Positions 21,053 to 25,930 of a stretch of DNA of 64,000 nucleotides are shown here, one piece after another; the stretch's first letter is position 1, and each line of letters begins with the position of its first letter. The notes under the pieces are model-generated. The model had not been told where the DNA came from. It saw only the letters and a program-made list of their open reading frames with translations, and did no database searches. This DNA is from Prevotella sp. E15-22 (GTDB lineage Bacteria > Bacteroidota > Bacteroidia > Bacteroidales > Bacteroidaceae): the NCBI RefSeq assembly GCF_023204875.1, contig NZ_CP096247.1, forward strand, positions 3,038,001 through 3,102,000, written 5' to 3'. The translations under genes and the position numbers were made by a program.

Positions 21053-21448
21053 ATGAACAACAAATTAACAACGAAACAAGAATACAACAAGGTTAAAAAC
21101 CTTGTGGAATCTCTTATTGCTGAGGCAACAGAAAAAGGGATGCTTGAACCTGAAATGGATAACGAATACACAAGAAAGATTTCTGATTTGAGCAAGCAGA
21201 TGGCGCAATACGAAGATGAATACATGGATATTATGCCTCTTCGCGAAAAGACGCCATTAATAAAATCTATCGAGGAGTACTTCTATGCTCGAAACATGAA
21301 GCAGAAAGAAGGAGCCAAGTTTCTCGGAATCAATGAATCAGTATTCAGTCAGATACTAAGTGGCAAAAGACGTATCACCATGCCACTTGCCAAACGGCTA
21401 CGCACAAAACTCGGCATTGATGCAGAAACAATTCTTGAATATGCATAA
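21053..21448 (+). CDS. HigA-type antitoxin, helix-turn-helix, orphaned
   Basis: The 131-residue protein has the layout of Bacteroidota HigA: an N-terminal helical, acidic region (EYNKVKNLVESLIAEATEKG) and a C-terminal HTH (MKQKEGAKFLGINESVFSQI, LSGKRRITMPLAKRLRTKLG). It would bind its own promoter and neutralise HigB, but the toxin gene upstream is reduced to its last codons. A good ribosome binding site AAAGGAGAA precedes the ATG. It may persist as a free regulator or as protection against related toxins. The low GC content fits the surrounding island. Confidence 0.88.
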   Translation: MNNKLTTKQEYNKVKNLVESLIAEATEKGMLEPEMDNEYTRKISDLSKQMAQYEDEYMDIMPLREKTPLIKSIEEYFYARNMKQKEGAKFLGINESVFSQILSGKRRITMPLAKRLRTKLGIDAETILEYA

Positions 21449-21543: not shown

Positions 21544-22080
21544 ATGAAAAAAGAATTTAGTTTAGAAGAAAAGATGTCCGCAATTGGGTTTGTGTTCCAA
21601 GGCGAGTCAGCCCGTTCTGTGTCCCGTAGACTCCACTTAGGCCATCATATTCTATATGAGTGGATAGAGAGTTACAAACTCCTTGGCATTGAAGGTCTAA
21701 AATTAAAGCCGAAGAAGAAAAAGAGGCTTTCATATGAAGAAAAATGCAAAATAGTTCGTGATTATCAGGAAAGTGAATTAACTTTGTTCCAGCTTTCAGC
21801 CAAATATCAATTGTCAAGCTCGATAATTGGCAATTGGGTTAAATTGGTTGAGCGAAATGGATTTGAAGCACTGGAATCTCGACGATCCAGGCATTTCCAA
21901 ACTGGTGAGCATATGGTTAAACGACTACCAAAAGAAGAGTACGAAAAGGAGAACGAGCGTCTTCGCAAGGAGAACGAACGCTTAAGACTGGAGAATCTCC
22001 TGCTAAAAAAAGTGAGAGCCTTAGTCGAGGAAAGAGAAACCCAAAACAGAGCGATTGGGCGCAAGCCATCGAAGAACTAA
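21544..22080 (+). CDS. IS3-family transposase OrfA (helix-turn-helix protein)
   Basis: The 178-residue product has two helix-turn-helix modules (FVFQGESARSVSRRLHLGHH and LFQLSAKYQLSSSIIGNWV) and a C-terminal leucine-zipper-like coiled coil (ENERLRKENERLRLENLLLK), the usual OrfA layout for terminal-repeat binding and oligomerisation. At 22005-22011 seven A followed by G give a -1 slippery site that would fuse OrfA to OrfB. Confidence 0.95.
   Translation: MKKEFSLEEKMSAIGFVFQGESARSVSRRLHLGHHILYEWIESYKLLGIEGLKLKPKKKKRLSYEEKCKIVRDYQESELTLFQLSAKYQLSSSIIGNWVKLVERNGFEALESRRSRHFQTGEHMVKRLPKEEYEKENERLRKENERLRLENLLLKKVRALVEERETQNRAIGRKPSKN
22005..22012 (+). promoter_or_regulatory. Programmed -1 frameshift site between OrfA and OrfB
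   Basis: A7 followed by G, read CTA-AAA-AAA-GTG in the OrfA frame. Slipping back one base continues as AAA-AGT-GAG into the OrfB frame, which is open from here to 22916, giving a fused OrfAB transposase of about 457 residues as in other IS3 elements. Confidence 0.8.
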
Positions 22081-22127
22081 GGCGTAATGAGCATGCGGAC
22101 TTAGATGTCCTGCTAGAGCTCAAGAAG

Positions 22128-22916
22128 ATGGCGCGTAGCACGTTCTACTATCACCTCAAGCACGGCAAGAAGAAAGACAGGTACAAGGAAGTAAAAGATA
22201 TGATATACACCGTATTTCATAAGCACAAAGGTCGTTACGGCTACAGGCGTATAACGCTGGAACTCCGTAAAGATGGCTGTCCTATCAATCACAAGACAGT
22301 CAAGAAGCTTATGGACGAAATGGAACTGAAGAGCGAGGTGAGGAAGGTGAAATTTCACTCCTATAAAGGAGAAGTTGGCAAGACTGCGCCTAATATCATA
22401 GACAGGGATTTTACAGCTGAAAGACCTTATCAGAAGCTTGCAACAGACGTGACCCAGATGACGATAGGCGGACGCAAGATTTACCTGTCACCTATACTTG
22501 ACATGTGCGATGGTGAGATTCTTGCATATTCAATCACAGAGAAGCCAAACATGGAAATGGTACTCGGTATGCTCAACCAGATGTACAGGCGTATAAAGCT
22601 GCCTGAGGGTGTCGTATTGCACTCTGACCAAGGATGGCACTACCAGCACGTAGCCTACCAGAATAGTCTAAAGAAACATGGCATTATCCAAAGCATGTCT
22701 CGCAAGGGAAATTGTCTGGATAACGCCATGATGGAGAATTTCTTTGGTCTCATGAAGTCAGAGCTGCTGTATTCTGGAAAGTACACATCAGCAGACACCT
22801 TCATCAAAGACCTGGTAGAATACATGGAATATTATAATAACGAGAGAATAAAACTGAGGCTTAATGGCATGTCGCCCGTACAATACAGGAAGATGCTTAC
22901 TGCTTCGATTGTTTAA
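22128..22916 (+). CDS. IS3-family transposase OrfB (DDE integrase domain)
   Basis: The rve/DDE catalytic core is complete: LATDVTQM (first Asp), VVLHSDQGWHYQ (second Asp) and CLDNAMMENFFGLMKSELLY (Glu), with the C-terminal YNNERIKLRLNGMSPVQYR typical of the family. The product is probably made mainly as the OrfAB fusion by frameshifting at 22005; the ATG at 22128 is only the first internal start of that frame, which is open further upstream. Confidence 0.95.
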   Translation: MARSTFYYHLKHGKKKDRYKEVKDMIYTVFHKHKGRYGYRRITLELRKDGCPINHKTVKKLMDEMELKSEVRKVKFHSYKGEVGKTAPNIIDRDFTAERPYQKLATDVTQMTIGGRKIYLSPILDMCDGEILAYSITEKPNMEMVLGMLNQMYRRIKLPEGVVLHSDQGWHYQHVAYQNSLKKHGIIQSMSRKGNCLDNAMMENFFGLMKSELLYSGKYTSADTFIKDLVEYMEYYNNERIKLRLNGMSPVQYRKMLTASIV

Positions 22917-22975: not shown

Positions 22976-25288
22976 TTATTTTAAAAATTCATATTCAAAT
23001 AGGATTGGGACTATTTCTTTGTTATAATAACCCTTTACAAGTTCTGCTAGTGTTTCAATATTTCCGTTTAACTCAGGATAATCAGGAACAGAATCACCAG
23101 TATCTGTGTCAATATGCTCAGTGTTCAGCTCTGTTTTTATCTGATACAAGCCATAATTGTATTGTGGTTGGTAATTTGCAGTTTGCTTAGCTTCTTCTAT
23201 TATTTTATTTAGCAATTCCAGCATCGTCTCCTCGTCATCAGTTTTCTTCATACTTTTTAGTCTCTCTGAAGCAAGAGTATCACCGTTTGTTGTATCAAGA
23301 CATAATTGATTTTTGTAATGTCTGCCATCAGAGCCAACAAATTCACGCATATGATTCTGAGGTTCAAGAATGGTAAATAGCAAACACTTTAACAGATATG
23401 CATCAAGTTTTCCTGAGGAAACTGCCTTCTTAAATCTTTCTGCTCCATCTCCAGATTTCATGATACGACTACGTTCCGTCCATTCTCTATTATACGTAAT
23501 ATATCGACTTGCTGCAAACATAGGAAGTTTTTCCAAATAATTATCATTACGAAGAAAGAAGCCATTGCCATCATATCTTCCAGCAATGAGAAGACTTGCC
23601 ATATTGTCGGGATTATCAAAACCACTACTATAAACTGCCATATAACCAAGAATATTAGAGTTGAGAATTGGCTTAATCCTTATTGTATTAGAAACAAGTC
23701 TTTCTGTTCCATCCTTGCTACAAAGAATACCCTCATTTATTATATCATCAGAGAATGTACGCTTGTCAAAATACAGCTGACTATACGACGAGTGTATTTT
23801 CTTTATAGCTAAATCTCCTACATAATCCAAGTTGTTCTCAGCATTGATATCATATGCAGCTATATTGAAACTATCTAATTCTTTATCATCTTCGTTACTC
23901 CAGAATGCAACCATAATTGTAGCTGCAATATTTGTATGGAAGTGTTTTCGATTAAAAGCAAAACCTCCAAGGAATTTCTTGTCAATCAAATGTTGCGCTT
24001 TCCAATATTTAACAGGCGAATAAACTATATAGCTATCTGTAGGCTGGCGAAGATAGTATTTAAATGCAGACCAAATGAATACATTACCCAAATCATTAAG
24101 GGCCGTGCCCTTCACCTCTTTCTTCATCTCTTTAAAGACATCATACGTCTTCCATTCAGAGCTTTTCTTACCAGCATTTTTCTTTTGGTGTTCAATCGAT
24201 GTAGTGTCTGCAAAAGGTGGATTCTCAAACAAGATAATAGTGCATTGTGGATTGCGAACATATTGCATGATAGTCTCATTATTAACATAATCCATGCTTA
24301 AGGCGTTTGCACCTCGAACCATGCCTCCATTAAAGGTGTCGATTTTTTCAGTTGGAGGAATTATATGCCTTACCTTATCACCAAAAGTTTCCAGTAGCAC
24401 TTTATATTCATAGTACTCATATGTAGATACAATTGTATGCGTAAGTTCCTCTGTAGTCATTCCTGACTCCAAATTACCTGTTCCTGCACAGCGATCTATT
24501 ATCACATAATCATTTCCAATGGGTACTCTTGCAATTGCTTTTCGAACTAGTTCAAGAGATTTTTTAGCATATACGGTGTGGGTATAGAAAGCACCTAAAT
24601 CTTTCTTGTGTAAATCATCATTTAGACGATCCATCAGATAACGGAATTTCTCATTACTCTTTCCTTTATATGGATAGATATAATCGCGAAATTTATCTGG
24701 TTTCCTTATTTCACCTATAATTTTTGTCTCTCCTGTTTCATCTCCAATAAATTCTGCTTTTGTAGATTTTGGATACTGTTTATAGAAAAAAGATGCCCAT
24801 CCAACTATGCAGTTTTCGTCGATATGAATCTTCGTATAATTCTCAGTTCGAAGTATTCCTATCAACTTTTCTTCTTCAATGGGATTGCTATAACTAAGTC
24901 GCAAGAAAGGGTCATCTGCAACAAATGTTTTATTGTTTCTTGACGCAGCTCCGACATATACCTTTTCAATTTTTTCAAGATAATCCGCAGAATGATATAT
25001 GTAGGCAGTTGTATCATTCAACGAGATAAGGATGATATTTGCAGGTAATGGGCGTCCTTTTAATCTCATTGACGACAACAATTTTATTGTTTGTGAAAGC
25101 ACTACATTTAAATTCTCTATCTGTGTCTTAAATTCAAGAAGATTTCCACGAACGACACCATCACTATAATATTTCTGCACATCAGAAATATCCAACGATC
25201 GGTCAACTCGAGGAAGATACTTCTGCAATAATTCTATCTGACCTTGCAGTTCTTTGTCGTACTTCTTAGTAAATGATAATTCATCCAT
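22976..25288 (-). CDS. Single-chain restriction-modification-type protein: N6-adenine DNA methyltransferase with N-terminal nuclease-like domain
   Basis: This 770-residue protein carries adenine methyltransferase motifs in N6-gamma order: GAFYTHTVYAKKS (motif X, 232-244), VIIDRCAGTGNLE (motif I, about 262-274) and FENPPF (motif IV, 354-359). The first 110 residues contain SDGVVRGNLLEFK with Asp43, Glu52 and Lys54 spaced like the D...ExK of PD-(D/E)XK nucleases, then SQTIKLL (Gln66). That layout, nuclease then methylase and a long C-terminal region for target recognition (roughly 430-770), resembles type IIG enzymes such as the Eco57I group, which cut and methylate with one polypeptide. The assignment of the nuclease is inferred from motif spacing. 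The gene is markedly AT-rich against its neighbours, which suggests transfer. No separate restriction or specificity gene is nearby. Confidence 0.8.
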   Translation of the reverse strand: MDELSFTKKYDKELQGQIELLQKYLPRVDRSLDISDVQKYYSDGVVRGNLLEFKTQIENLNVVLSQTIKLLSSMRLKGRPLPANIILISLNDTTAYIYHSADYLEKIEKVYVGAASRNNKTFVADDPFLRLSYSNPIEEEKLIGILRTENYTKIHIDENCIVGWASFFYKQYPKSTKAEFIGDETGETKIIGEIRKPDKFRDYIYPYKGKSNEKFRYLMDRLNDDLHKKDLGAFYTHTVYAKKSLELVRKAIARVPIGNDYVIIDRCAGTGNLESGMTTEELTHTIVSTYEYYEYKVLLETFGDKVRHIIPPTEKIDTFNGGMVRGANALSMDYVNNETIMQYVRNPQCTIILFENPPFADTTSIEHQKKNAGKKSSEWKTYDVFKEMKKEVKGTALNDLGNVFIWSAFKYYLRQPTDSYIVYSPVKYWKAQHLIDKKFLGGFAFNRKHFHTNIAATIMVAFWSNEDDKELDSFNIAAYDINAENNLDYVGDLAIKKIHSSYSQLYFDKRTFSDDIINEGILCSKDGTERLVSNTIRIKPILNSNILGYMAVYSSGFDNPDNMASLLIAGRYDGNGFFLRNDNYLEKLPMFAASRYITYNREWTERSRIMKSGDGAERFKKAVSSGKLDAYLLKCLLFTILEPQNHMREFVGSDGRHYKNQLCLDTTNGDTLASERLKSMKKTDDEETMLELLNKIIEEAKQTANYQPQYNYGLYQIKTELNTEHIDTDTGDSVPDYPELNGNIETLAELVKGYYNKEIVPILFEYEFLK

Positions 25289-25290
25289 AT

Positions 25291-25336
25291 GCGATTGATA
25301 GTTTTAAGTCAAAATTAGGCATGAACTATCAATCGC
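25291..25336 (-). promoter_or_regulatory. 13-bp inverted repeat enclosing a -7 box at the restriction-modification gene start
   Basis: GCGATTGATAGTT (25291-25303) and AACTATCAATCGC (25324-25336) are perfect inverted arms around 20 bp that contain, on the minus strand, TAATTTTG (25310-25317), a match to the -7 consensus. The inner arm ends 2 bp before the ATG. This looks like an operator for autoregulation or an mRNA hairpin over the start. No -33 box is correctly spaced. Confidence 0.65.
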
Positions 25337-25367
25337 CTACGCACAAAGAAAGCGTGATGCTCCTTAT

Positions 25368-25557
25368 GCGTTAAGCTGGGGTATGCCTAGGAAAATGGGC
25401 CCCATCCTGTCATATAAGTATGCACCACGCCTATTGCGTCGATGCATTGCTATAATATTGACAGGATGCGAGTATACATATTCCTATACCCACAAATCTC
25501 TATTACTTCAGAGCGTTTCTTATCCCAATTTGTTTCCTAGGCATATTGGCTTAACGC
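25368..25557 (-). ncRNA. Candidate structured RNA (multi-branched) in the leader of the restriction-modification gene
   Basis: Read on the minus strand, nested complementary arms close a region of about 190 nt: P1 GCGTTAAGC / GCTTAACGC, P2 ATGCCTAGGAAA / TTTCCTAGGCAT, then inside a multiloop P3 CAAAT / ATTTG with an inner CTCT / AGAG, P4 GTATA / TATAC, and P5 ATCCTGTCA / TGACAGGAT that continues through ATGCA / TGCAT and ACGC / GCGT. A -7 box TAACTTTG at 25611-25618 (minus) and a small GTTCGG / CCGAAC hairpin precede it, so it could be transcribed toward the methyltransferase gene about 80 bp downstream. No open frame explains the pairing. It could be a regulatory leader, an independent small RNA or a miniature transposable element. 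I recognise no known RNA family. Confidence 0.5.
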
Positions 25558-25610
25558 GAAATAATAGCAAATGCTTCTTAATTTGTTCGGATTTCTCCCC
25601 GAACCAGCTG

Positions 25611-25618
25611 CAAAGTTA
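25611..25618 (-). promoter_or_regulatory. -7 promoter box upstream of the structured region
   Basis: TAACTTTGCAGC on the minus strand matches the Bacteroidota -7 element. No TTTG is found 19-20 bp upstream, so the promoter is only half supported. Confidence 0.4.
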
Positions 25619-25716
25619 CGAAAAAGTTTGGAAAGAGAAGGACTTTAAGAGAATAAAATGAAAAAAATGATGAAAAGAAATGATACGATAAATTTATACA
25701 GAATTTCCCAAAACCC

Positions 25717-25917
25717 CTGGTACCAAGCGGTTGGTACTCACAGTACCAACCCCTCTGGTATTTTCAGTACCAACGCCTCTGGTACTCTCAGTACCAAGGC
25801 TTGGTAGCGTCAGTACCAAGCTTTGGTAGGCACACTACCAAGCTTTGGTAGTCAGGCTACCAAGCCGTGGTAGCGTGGCTACCAACGTATGGTAGTCACG
25901 ATACCAAAATTCGGTAG
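25717..25917. repeat. Tandem palindromic array: nine TACCAA / TTGGTA units at about 22-bp spacing
   Basis: TACCAA occurs at 25721, 25744, 25768, 25792, 25814, 25836, 25858, 25880 and 25902: steps of 23, 24, 24, then five of exactly 22. Each is paired with an inverted GGTAC or TTGGTA (for example TACCAAGCTTTGGTA), so every unit is a small dyad and neighbours can also pair. Units on the left carry GTACCAA, those on the right CTACCAA, with a hybrid in between, which looks like amplification followed by drift. Spacing of two helical turns would put all dyads on one face of DNA. The array starts 13 bp beyond the GH51 stop codon and fills the gap toward the structured RNA promoter. It is not coding (steps are not multiples of three) and not CRISPR (no spacers). 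Confidence 0.9.
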
Positions 25918-25930
25918 TATAATAGGACTA

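Follow-up and report, generated by a model that had tools for sequence, protein, structure and literature searches.

The window is a stretch of 64,000 nucleotides of the genome of Prevotella sp. E15-22 (NZ_CP096247.1, positions 3,038,001 to 3,102,000), and positions below are counted from its first letter. Its minus strand carries a gene for a 770-aa protein (22976..25288), preceded by a leader RNA of about 320 nt, bounded by a promoter box (25611-25618) and the ATG at 25288. The family assignment of the protein depends on the CAGTGNLE and NPP motifs, which we take to be N6-methylase motifs. The protein gave no Pfam, NCBIfam or PDB sequence match; it has 3414 scored database relatives, both motifs are invariant in the family, and it may be an uncatalogued fused restriction-modification enzyme. 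An IS3-like transposase pair (21544-22916, rve and HTH domains) adjoins the methylase gene on the opposite strand, and beyond it lies an HTH gene (21053-21448) with a weak PADLOC likeness to PD-Lambda-2_B. Between the RNA promoter and an arabinofuranosidase gene, positions 25732-25918 hold an array of units of about 22 nt with TACCAA/TTGGTA inverted words, possibly protein-binding sites or an intergenic repeat. The features of the leader and its gene are as follows.

25611..25618, minus strand: -7 promoter box TAACTTTG (sequence)
25585..25605, minus strand: P0, 5' hairpin GGTTCGG..CCGAAC (MFE fold, sequence)
25567..25576, minus strand: 5' element AAGCAUU.GC, nearly invariant, candidate partner of the RUGC loop of TH (invariant columns)
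25560..25567, minus strand: 5' strand of PK1, CUAUUAUU, pairs with 25500-25507 (alignment of 28 copies)
25549..25557, minus strand: 5' strand of P2, GCGUUAAGC, the outer arm (covariation)
25534..25542, minus strand: 5' strand of P3, GCCUAGGAA (covariation, 63 copies)
25524..25528, minus strand: 5' strand of P4, UUGGG, extends P3 beyond an internal loop (covariation, 63 copies)
25498..25514, minus strand: Pa hairpin, whose loop AGUAAUAG (25500-25507) is the 3' strand of PK1 (inspection of relatives)
25470..25491, minus strand: Pb hairpin, variable (MFE)
25459..25467, minus strand: 5' strand of Pc, AUCCUGUCA, pairs with 25404-25412 (MFE; sequence-variable in relatives and left out of the pair counts)
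25420..25447, minus strand: P6 hairpin, whose 3' strand GGCGUGGUGC (25422-25431) shows complementarity to the loop strand of AH as well (covariation)
25400..25404, minus strand: 5' strand of PK2, UGGGG, pairs with 25377-25381 across P3 (locus parse)
25385..25393, minus strand: 3' strand of P3 (covariation, both alignments)
25377..25381, minus strand: 3' strand of PK2, CCCCA (locus parse)
25368..25376, minus strand: 3' strand of P2, GCUUAACGC, last bases common to the base of AH (covariation, folds, sequence)
25339..25371, minus strand: AH, switch hairpin ACGCAUAAGGA-GCAUCACGC-UUUCUUUGUGCGU, loop strand 25351-25360 complementary to the P6 3' strand
25291..25336, minus strand: TH, start-codon hairpin, stem of 13 bp, loop RUGC, 2 nt between its end and the ATG
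22976..25288, minus strand: gene for the 770-aa protein, N6-adenine methyltransferase-like, CAGTGNLE and NPPF motifs (motif only)

Thermodynamic folding of 25289-25620, a check proposed in an earlier note on this DNA, gave -116 kcal/mol against -80.5 +/- 4.6 kcal/mol for 100 dinucleotide shuffles (z -7.69), none of which was as good. The nested arms described in that note are present on the minus strand where it had placed them: the 9-bp outer arm (25549-25557 / 25368-25376), the GCCTAGG arm (25534-25542 / 25385-25393), inner pairs and, 54 bp before the outer arm, the -7 box, presumably of the Bacteroidota type. The extent of about 190 nt was too short, as structure continues through the 5' hairpin (25585-25605) on one side and through the hairpins at 25339-25371 and 25291-25336, up to the start codon, on the other. 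The word ATGCCTA does recur (25538-25544, 25316-25322) as had been observed; the idea that it marks a shared site was rejected, AUGCCUA being found in only 3 of 164 start-hairpin loops, the window copy among the three, where RUGC alone is conserved. In relatives P0 has other arm sequences (by eye), and some copies have other sequence in its place. Of 232 loci, 213 have a TANNTTTG box in the 150 nt that precede the core (22.5 expected from shuffles).

Compensatory base changes had also been suggested as evidence to look for, and they go beyond shuffled and slid controls in alignments of 28 and of 63 copies. In the 28-copy alignment, made from sequence only, the 45 pairs of five helices were formed in 98.4% of cells (93.3% shuffled), and covariation was 0.214 (0.116 when shuffled, none of 500 shuffles reaching 0.214); with the partners displaced by 1-3 columns, it was 0.062 or less. 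All nine pairs of P2 are formed in 28/28 of these sequences, four of them with double changes, and one position takes all four Watson-Crick types (CG, UA, AU, GC). Among 63 diverse copies, whose alignment was fitted to the structure and is hence biased in its favour, double compensatory changes occur in 34 of 35 core pairs and covariation is 0.499 versus 0.179. In this larger set, double changes affect 9/9 pairs of P2, 8/8 pairs of P3 (each formed in 63/63 sequences) and 5/6 pairs of P4 (86.8% of cells paired).

Two further helices cross these. PK1, between the 5' strand CUAUUAUU and the loop of Pa, has 98.6% of cells paired and is nearly invariant, with zero double changes (28 copies). PK2 joins XGRGG inside P3 to CCYCX' outside it. 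Of 186 loci 170 could be parsed (16 could not), and all pairs of PK2 form in 166 of the 170, a count much of which is built in, because the parse demands GRGG and CCYC and picks the best candidate. Free tests come from the outer base, which exchanges among A-U, U-A, C-G, G-C and G-U, and from the third base: each of the 58 parsed copies with GAGG has CCUC opposite, never CCCC. Judged by its relatives, the leader is a conserved structured RNA, and the core (P2-P3-P4, Pa, Pb, Pc-P6 and the crossing PK1 and PK2) would form a compact folded domain.

The 3' strand of P6 has two partners. Within its own hairpin 12/12 pairs show double changes, and 88.2% of cells are paired (63 copies). Against the AH loop strand, the same P6 strand has a complementary stretch of about 8-10 bases, in which 97.8% of cells are paired in 28 copies, two pairs with double changes and six varying on one side. 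Duplexes of the true P6 and AH partners reached -15.99 kcal/mol against -13.75 kcal/mol for permuted partners (0/2000; 138 of 186 loci placed, 121 distinct, 48 unplaced), and among dissimilar representatives -15.9 kcal/mol when matched against -11.9 kcal/mol when mismatched (0/5000 permutations; 49 of 67 placed, 18 unplaced), relatedness being only partly removed in both tests. AH itself was seen by eye in 27 of 28 folded tails, one of which (L018) has another foot, and L024 folds otherwise; the foot of AH is shared with the 3' strand of P2. Since the P6 3' strand is unable to hold both partners at once, the arrangement is a classic sign of a conformational switch. Going by covariation, two exclusive structures on one P6 strand are both selected, which is a criterion for riboswitches. 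The strand would pair either inside P6 or with the AH loop, so that the leader would have two exclusive states. The earlier note had hinted at strand exchange by way of ATGCCTA; the exchange supported here is a different one, between the P6 3' strand and the AH loop.

To count as the start-codon hairpin TH, a hairpin had to have a perfect stem (7-13 bp), UGC in the loop or at it, and an AUG no more than 11 nt away. Of 235 loci whose cores are distinct, 164 passed this test, or 164 of 227 full-length tails, against 12.7 expected from shuffles (8 of the 235 tails, too short, were left out of this comparison), and about nine of the 164 are type B-like copies, described below, in which the hairpin is probably accidental. 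Stems of at least 10 bp number 131 versus 0.7 in shuffled tails, and in 152 of the 164 a gap of 0-6 nt separates the hairpin from the AUG. A version of the test without the UGC condition was passed by 150 of 186 loci, with UGC in the loop of 131 of the 150 (19.9 shuffled). The stem is almost invariant in close copies (GAUUGAUAGU/ACUAUCAAUC; 0/10 pairs with double changes in 28 copies), and the structural conservation of TH rests on distant copies such as L087, L152, L278, L283 and L284, which retain the hairpin despite another stem sequence. Duplexes between the TH loop and the 5' end of the core beat permuted ones (0/1000), with a small effect of 0.3 kcal/mol. Kissing of the TH and AH loops, which had first been expected, is unsupported (254/1000 permutations as good), and a third helix, P7, in which AH would pair with the foot of TH, is weak (2/1000 permutations, 0.4 kcal/mol) and is not claimed.

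By position, between a promoter and a start codon on the same strand, the element is placed like a cis-regulatory leader. The earlier note had left open a regulatory leader or a separate small RNA linked to a defence gene; the structured RNA and the methylase gene are borne out, and a leader is favoured because the start-codon hairpin occurs in 164 of 227 tails against 12.7 in shuffled ones. A separate small RNA from this region (6S-like or an RNA antitoxin), coupled to the gene only incidentally, would account for the own promoter, the compact fold and the type B copies, which have AH without a conserved start hairpin and usually lie tens of nt from the gene. The placement of the start hairpin near the AUG far above chance, the same-strand orientation of the type B reading frames in 34/34 cases and the many unrelated protein families to which one RNA could hardly be antitoxin make this improbable.

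Two covariance models were used, R1 (core, 204 positions, from 28 copies) and the broader R2 (from 63 diverse copies). R1, which carries out the model search proposed at the outset, matched 165 of 398 sampled genomes of the genus, 92 of 399 genomes in a family sample, where 16 of 30 genera were represented, and 3 of 395 in a class sample, namely the own genome and two weak matches (E 0.008-0.009). R2, in a class sample of the same size, found the own genome and two other weak matches (E 0.006). A distribution restricted to the genus was rejected, as the leader occurs in 16 of 30 genera of the family. Detection was biased to R1-like copies, and searches of more than 40 genomes applied stricter filters by which weak matches are lost, so that leader counts are lower bounds.

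An exact 22-base pattern was found in at least 119 stretches of named genomes, of which 80 loci were used; their titles include Prevotella, Xylanibacter ruminicola, Bacteroides rodentium and Marseilla, together with MAGs, including Muribaculaceae and Paludibacteraceae (submitters' labels). All 80 gave R1 matches with E of at most 0.001; in three the contig stops before the leader does, and four hold little beyond the 5' part (29-38 bits). The pattern had no match in viral contigs, nor did the leader by blastn in plasmid and phage records. Blastn of the own genome found one full-length close copy, and copies were present in relatives; the blastn count of 51/199 is inflated by short promoter-only matches, and model counts were used instead. 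The truncated L026 and L031 were left out of alignments A1/A2, 14 named loci were dropped as identical, nine genus-sample loci were left out of the later set as repeats, and L264-L273 and L314-L315 lie outside the analysis. L113 has two leaders about 3.7 kb apart at one locus on the same strand (G292:C5 3642-3841 and 7384-7591). The leaders of L176, L191, L202, L223 and L026 end after the 5' part and are joined to unrelated or coding sequence; these may be decayed copies or chimeric MAG contigs.

In line with the earlier note, which recognised no known RNA family, no Rfam 15 family reached its gathering score in the window, in 18 homologous loci or in 10 type B loci. At relaxed thresholds the window copy gave a weak, full-length match to the RNase MRP model (21.3 bits, gathering 50, E 3e-4); this RNase MRP/P likeness was rejected as chance because 0/18 homologous loci and 0/10 type B loci match.

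The proteins behind the leader were classed by Pfam. Among the 161 loci that pass the TH test and have an open reading frame, 126 belong to clusters whose representative carries a restriction or methylase domain, the classes being taken from scanned representatives while some members were unscanned. The 126 comprise EcoRI_methylase (112), N6_N4_Mtase including type III Mod (6), HsdM/N6_Mtase (3), MmeI-like (2) and one each of an HSDR_N-N6_Mtase fusion, an N6_N4_Mtase protein and HSDR_N. Beyond the 126, L165 is similar to the EcoRI cluster by BLAST, six further loci of the 161 belong to the 770-aa family of the window, and two small clusters (DUF4268; L049/L053/L056/L151) and an exonuclease-like pair were assigned to no class. 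Copies that fail the TH test head, among others, a C5 methylase (L279) and an SNF2/ResIII helicase (L274). The systems behind the leader are mutually unrelated: EcoRI-type, type I, IIL, III, C5 and PLD/helicase. Exceptions are a glycosyltransferase (L150), another by the look of its sequence (L180) and a phosphoesterase (L112). Further exceptions are L198, L282, L284, L285 and L291, where Acyl_transf_3-type genes of one cluster take the place of methylases (four were scanned, L291 was classed by cluster), hinting at a link between restriction and surface modification. At L214 (CAMAGM010000103.1) a complete leader and about 14 methylase-like codons are in frame with an acyltransferase-like open reading frame, which suggests gene swapping behind the leader, or is a MAG assembly error.

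In 60 hand-picked genomes of the genus, EcoRI_methylase was present in 37 of 41 with the leader and in 1 of 19 without it. A manual comparison covered 51 EcoRI_methylase genes, 6 fragment rows being excluded: a model match lies just upstream of 35 and is absent from 13, and 3 fell outside the matches listed; the leader is thus common on these genes and not obligatory.

In the own genome, R2 ranked two loci after the window copy, G000:C1:2186603-2186745 (E 0.0046; only 12 bits with R1) and 1121031-1121177 (E 0.037). The second copy (L003/L316) has P2 UUGUCUUGA/UCAAGACAA, P3 CCUAGGAAA/UUUCCUAGG and the P6-AH complementarity GCGUGGAC/GUUCACGC, and no clear start hairpin was seen in it; it heads an EcoRI_methylase gene followed by a 365-aa gene, presumably a DUF262-type partner by its look. 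In the third, which has P2 GCGUCGUGA/UCACGAUGC, the arms GAUAUAGUUUU..AAAACUAUAUC form a hairpin whose loop contains GGUGC, about 8 nt upstream of the ATG (by eye; MFE); the gene behind this leader encodes a PLD/SNF2 restriction-type protein of 1137 aa (scan of the first 462 aa) and is followed by one for a 1246-aa protein with DPACGSG and NPPY motifs. Both were accepted because of structure and gene context, E-values alone being insufficient. The own genome probably has three leaders, of which the two highly diverged ones each precede a further restriction-modification operon. A fourth candidate is partial (E 0.22), with no gene seen behind it.

A set of 34 copies (95-131 bits), called type B, shares the promoter, the 5' hairpin, the core and AH, lacks a conserved TH and has varied genes downstream. 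The nearest downstream open reading frame is on the same strand in 34/34 and starts within 142 nt in 30/34. A bias to secreted proteins was not claimed (17/34 versus 46/118 neighbours, p = 0.32). Since type B lacks a conserved TH, not every member can work by start-codon occlusion, and since it heads other genes, the core is not restricted to defence genes. The core would be a general regulatory module, with restriction-modification genes as its main, not sole, users in the sample.

From the fold, the covariation, the alternative pairing, the position and the gene association, all obtained by sequence comparison, we consider it reasonably probable that the leader is a new class of cis-acting RNA switch that gates the translation of restriction genes in Bacteroidaceae. 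Transcription of the leader would start at its own promoter, and restriction-modification operons would have the leader as their 5' UTR; that leader and operon form a single mRNA, in which direction the switch works and that translation is what it controls, we infer. The core would hold or release AH through the P6 strand and so decide whether TH blocks the start codon. A TH that is formed and docked, perhaps through its RUGC loop to GCAUU at the 5' end of the core, would block ribosome entry; with TH opened, the restriction-modification gene would be translated. The trigger may be a metabolite, an RNA-binding protein of the host or a change brought about by phage.

Large riboswitches are known in general for expression platforms built on mutually exclusive pairing, and S-adenosylmethionine is the cofactor of every methylase. 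A metabolite riboswitch, with the core as aptamer (for S-adenosylmethionine or a nucleotide signal, for example) and AH/TH as expression platform, is a serious alternative that we nevertheless hold to be rather unlikely. The size, crossing helices, invariant bases and exclusive-pairing platform of the leader resemble those of a large riboswitch, and most attached genes in the sample encode methylases, that is, users of S-adenosylmethionine. An S-adenosylmethionine riboswitch leaves unexplained the acyltransferases, the glycosyltransferase, the PLD/helicase proteins and the many unrelated genes of type B, and no Rfam SAM riboswitch matched the window, the 18 homologous loci or the 10 type B loci even at relaxed thresholds. 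The leader shares with large riboswitches a complex conserved core, crossing helices, a strand common to two helices and a start-codon output hairpin; it differs from them in having no Rfam match, in lying mainly on restriction-modification genes and in that no ligand is known.

The leader might instead be the landing site of a host RNA-binding protein or a phage protein, with the defence genes kept off until the protein remodels it, a reading to which we also give a minor share of belief. The near invariance of the TH stem in close copies and the use of one leader on unrelated defence genes agree with this, the reading fits the defence context, and there is a precedent in abiD1, whose 5' UTR is bound by a phage protein that activates translation (PMC12373285). 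Against it, a broader host signal is suggested by the type B copies, which lie on non-defence genes, and no candidate protein was identified.

A selfish or DNA-level element captured upstream of genes (a miniature transposon or a folded recombination site) could explain the inverted repeats, the patchy distribution, the truncated 5' pieces (L176, L191, L202, L223) and the leader-codon-acyltransferase joint of L214, yet this is very improbable, as is the dispersed miniature element by which the earlier note would have been refuted, given one full-length close copy in the own genome without viral, plasmid or phage match, a promoter at a similar place, crossing pairings, constant orientation, a short distance to the start codon, truncated pieces that may be MAG assembly artefacts, and genes behind the window copy and the two likely diverged copies of the own genome, if not behind the fourth partial candidate.

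The preferred reading, a cis-acting switch on restriction genes, has partial parallels in the literature. A 2025 review notes that antisense RNAs or hairpins restricting access to the start sites of restriction enzymes have been observed, and as means of control it names proteins, methylation of promoters and antisense RNAs or hairpins specific to single systems (PMC12707154). The leader resembles the hairpins and antisense RNAs of EcoRI, Eco29kI and PvuII in an RNA-level limit on restriction-modification translation (here inferred); those controls are local and system-specific, whereas the present leader is about 320 nt long, conserved and common to unrelated systems. For PvuII, disruption of the hairpins had no significant effect (PMC2997769). 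As with the RCd22/abiF RNA and the abiD1 5' UTR, a structured RNA lies directly upstream of a phage-defence gene (PMC12373285). RCd22 is a repeat-based RNA antitoxin that binds its toxin; no tandem repeat was found in 25270-25640 and the downstream proteins are mutually unrelated, and a type III toxin-antitoxin RNA was rejected on these grounds. RptR and C-protein likewise provide common control of restriction-modification systems (PMC12255303), as protein regulators acting on promoters, while the leader is an RNA. Among the matches listed from full-text literature, outside subscription papers and preprints, no paper described such a leader. It may be an unnamed row in the tables of PMC8040213, which presents 3161 candidate structured RNAs of human microbiomes.

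The elaborate RNA that many Prevotella-like bacteria of gut and rumen have before unrelated restriction genes may serve these genes as a common on/off switch. A wider extension, in which restriction-modification systems and acyltransferases of Bacteroidaceae form an anti-phage regulon tied to one intracellular or phage-induced signal, is possible and is offered tentatively; the acyltransferases could then alter surface phage receptors, and new defence genes could enter host control by acquiring the leader RNA. For most systems it is open how restriction waits for methylation of the host DNA and whether it responds to phage, and the leader makes the question of restriction control directly testable in gut bacteria. 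It could also bear on the barriers to genetic manipulation of Prevotella and relatives. If the proposed reading is true, one conserved RNA on unrelated restriction-modification systems would amount to a portable, RNA-level control of immunity.
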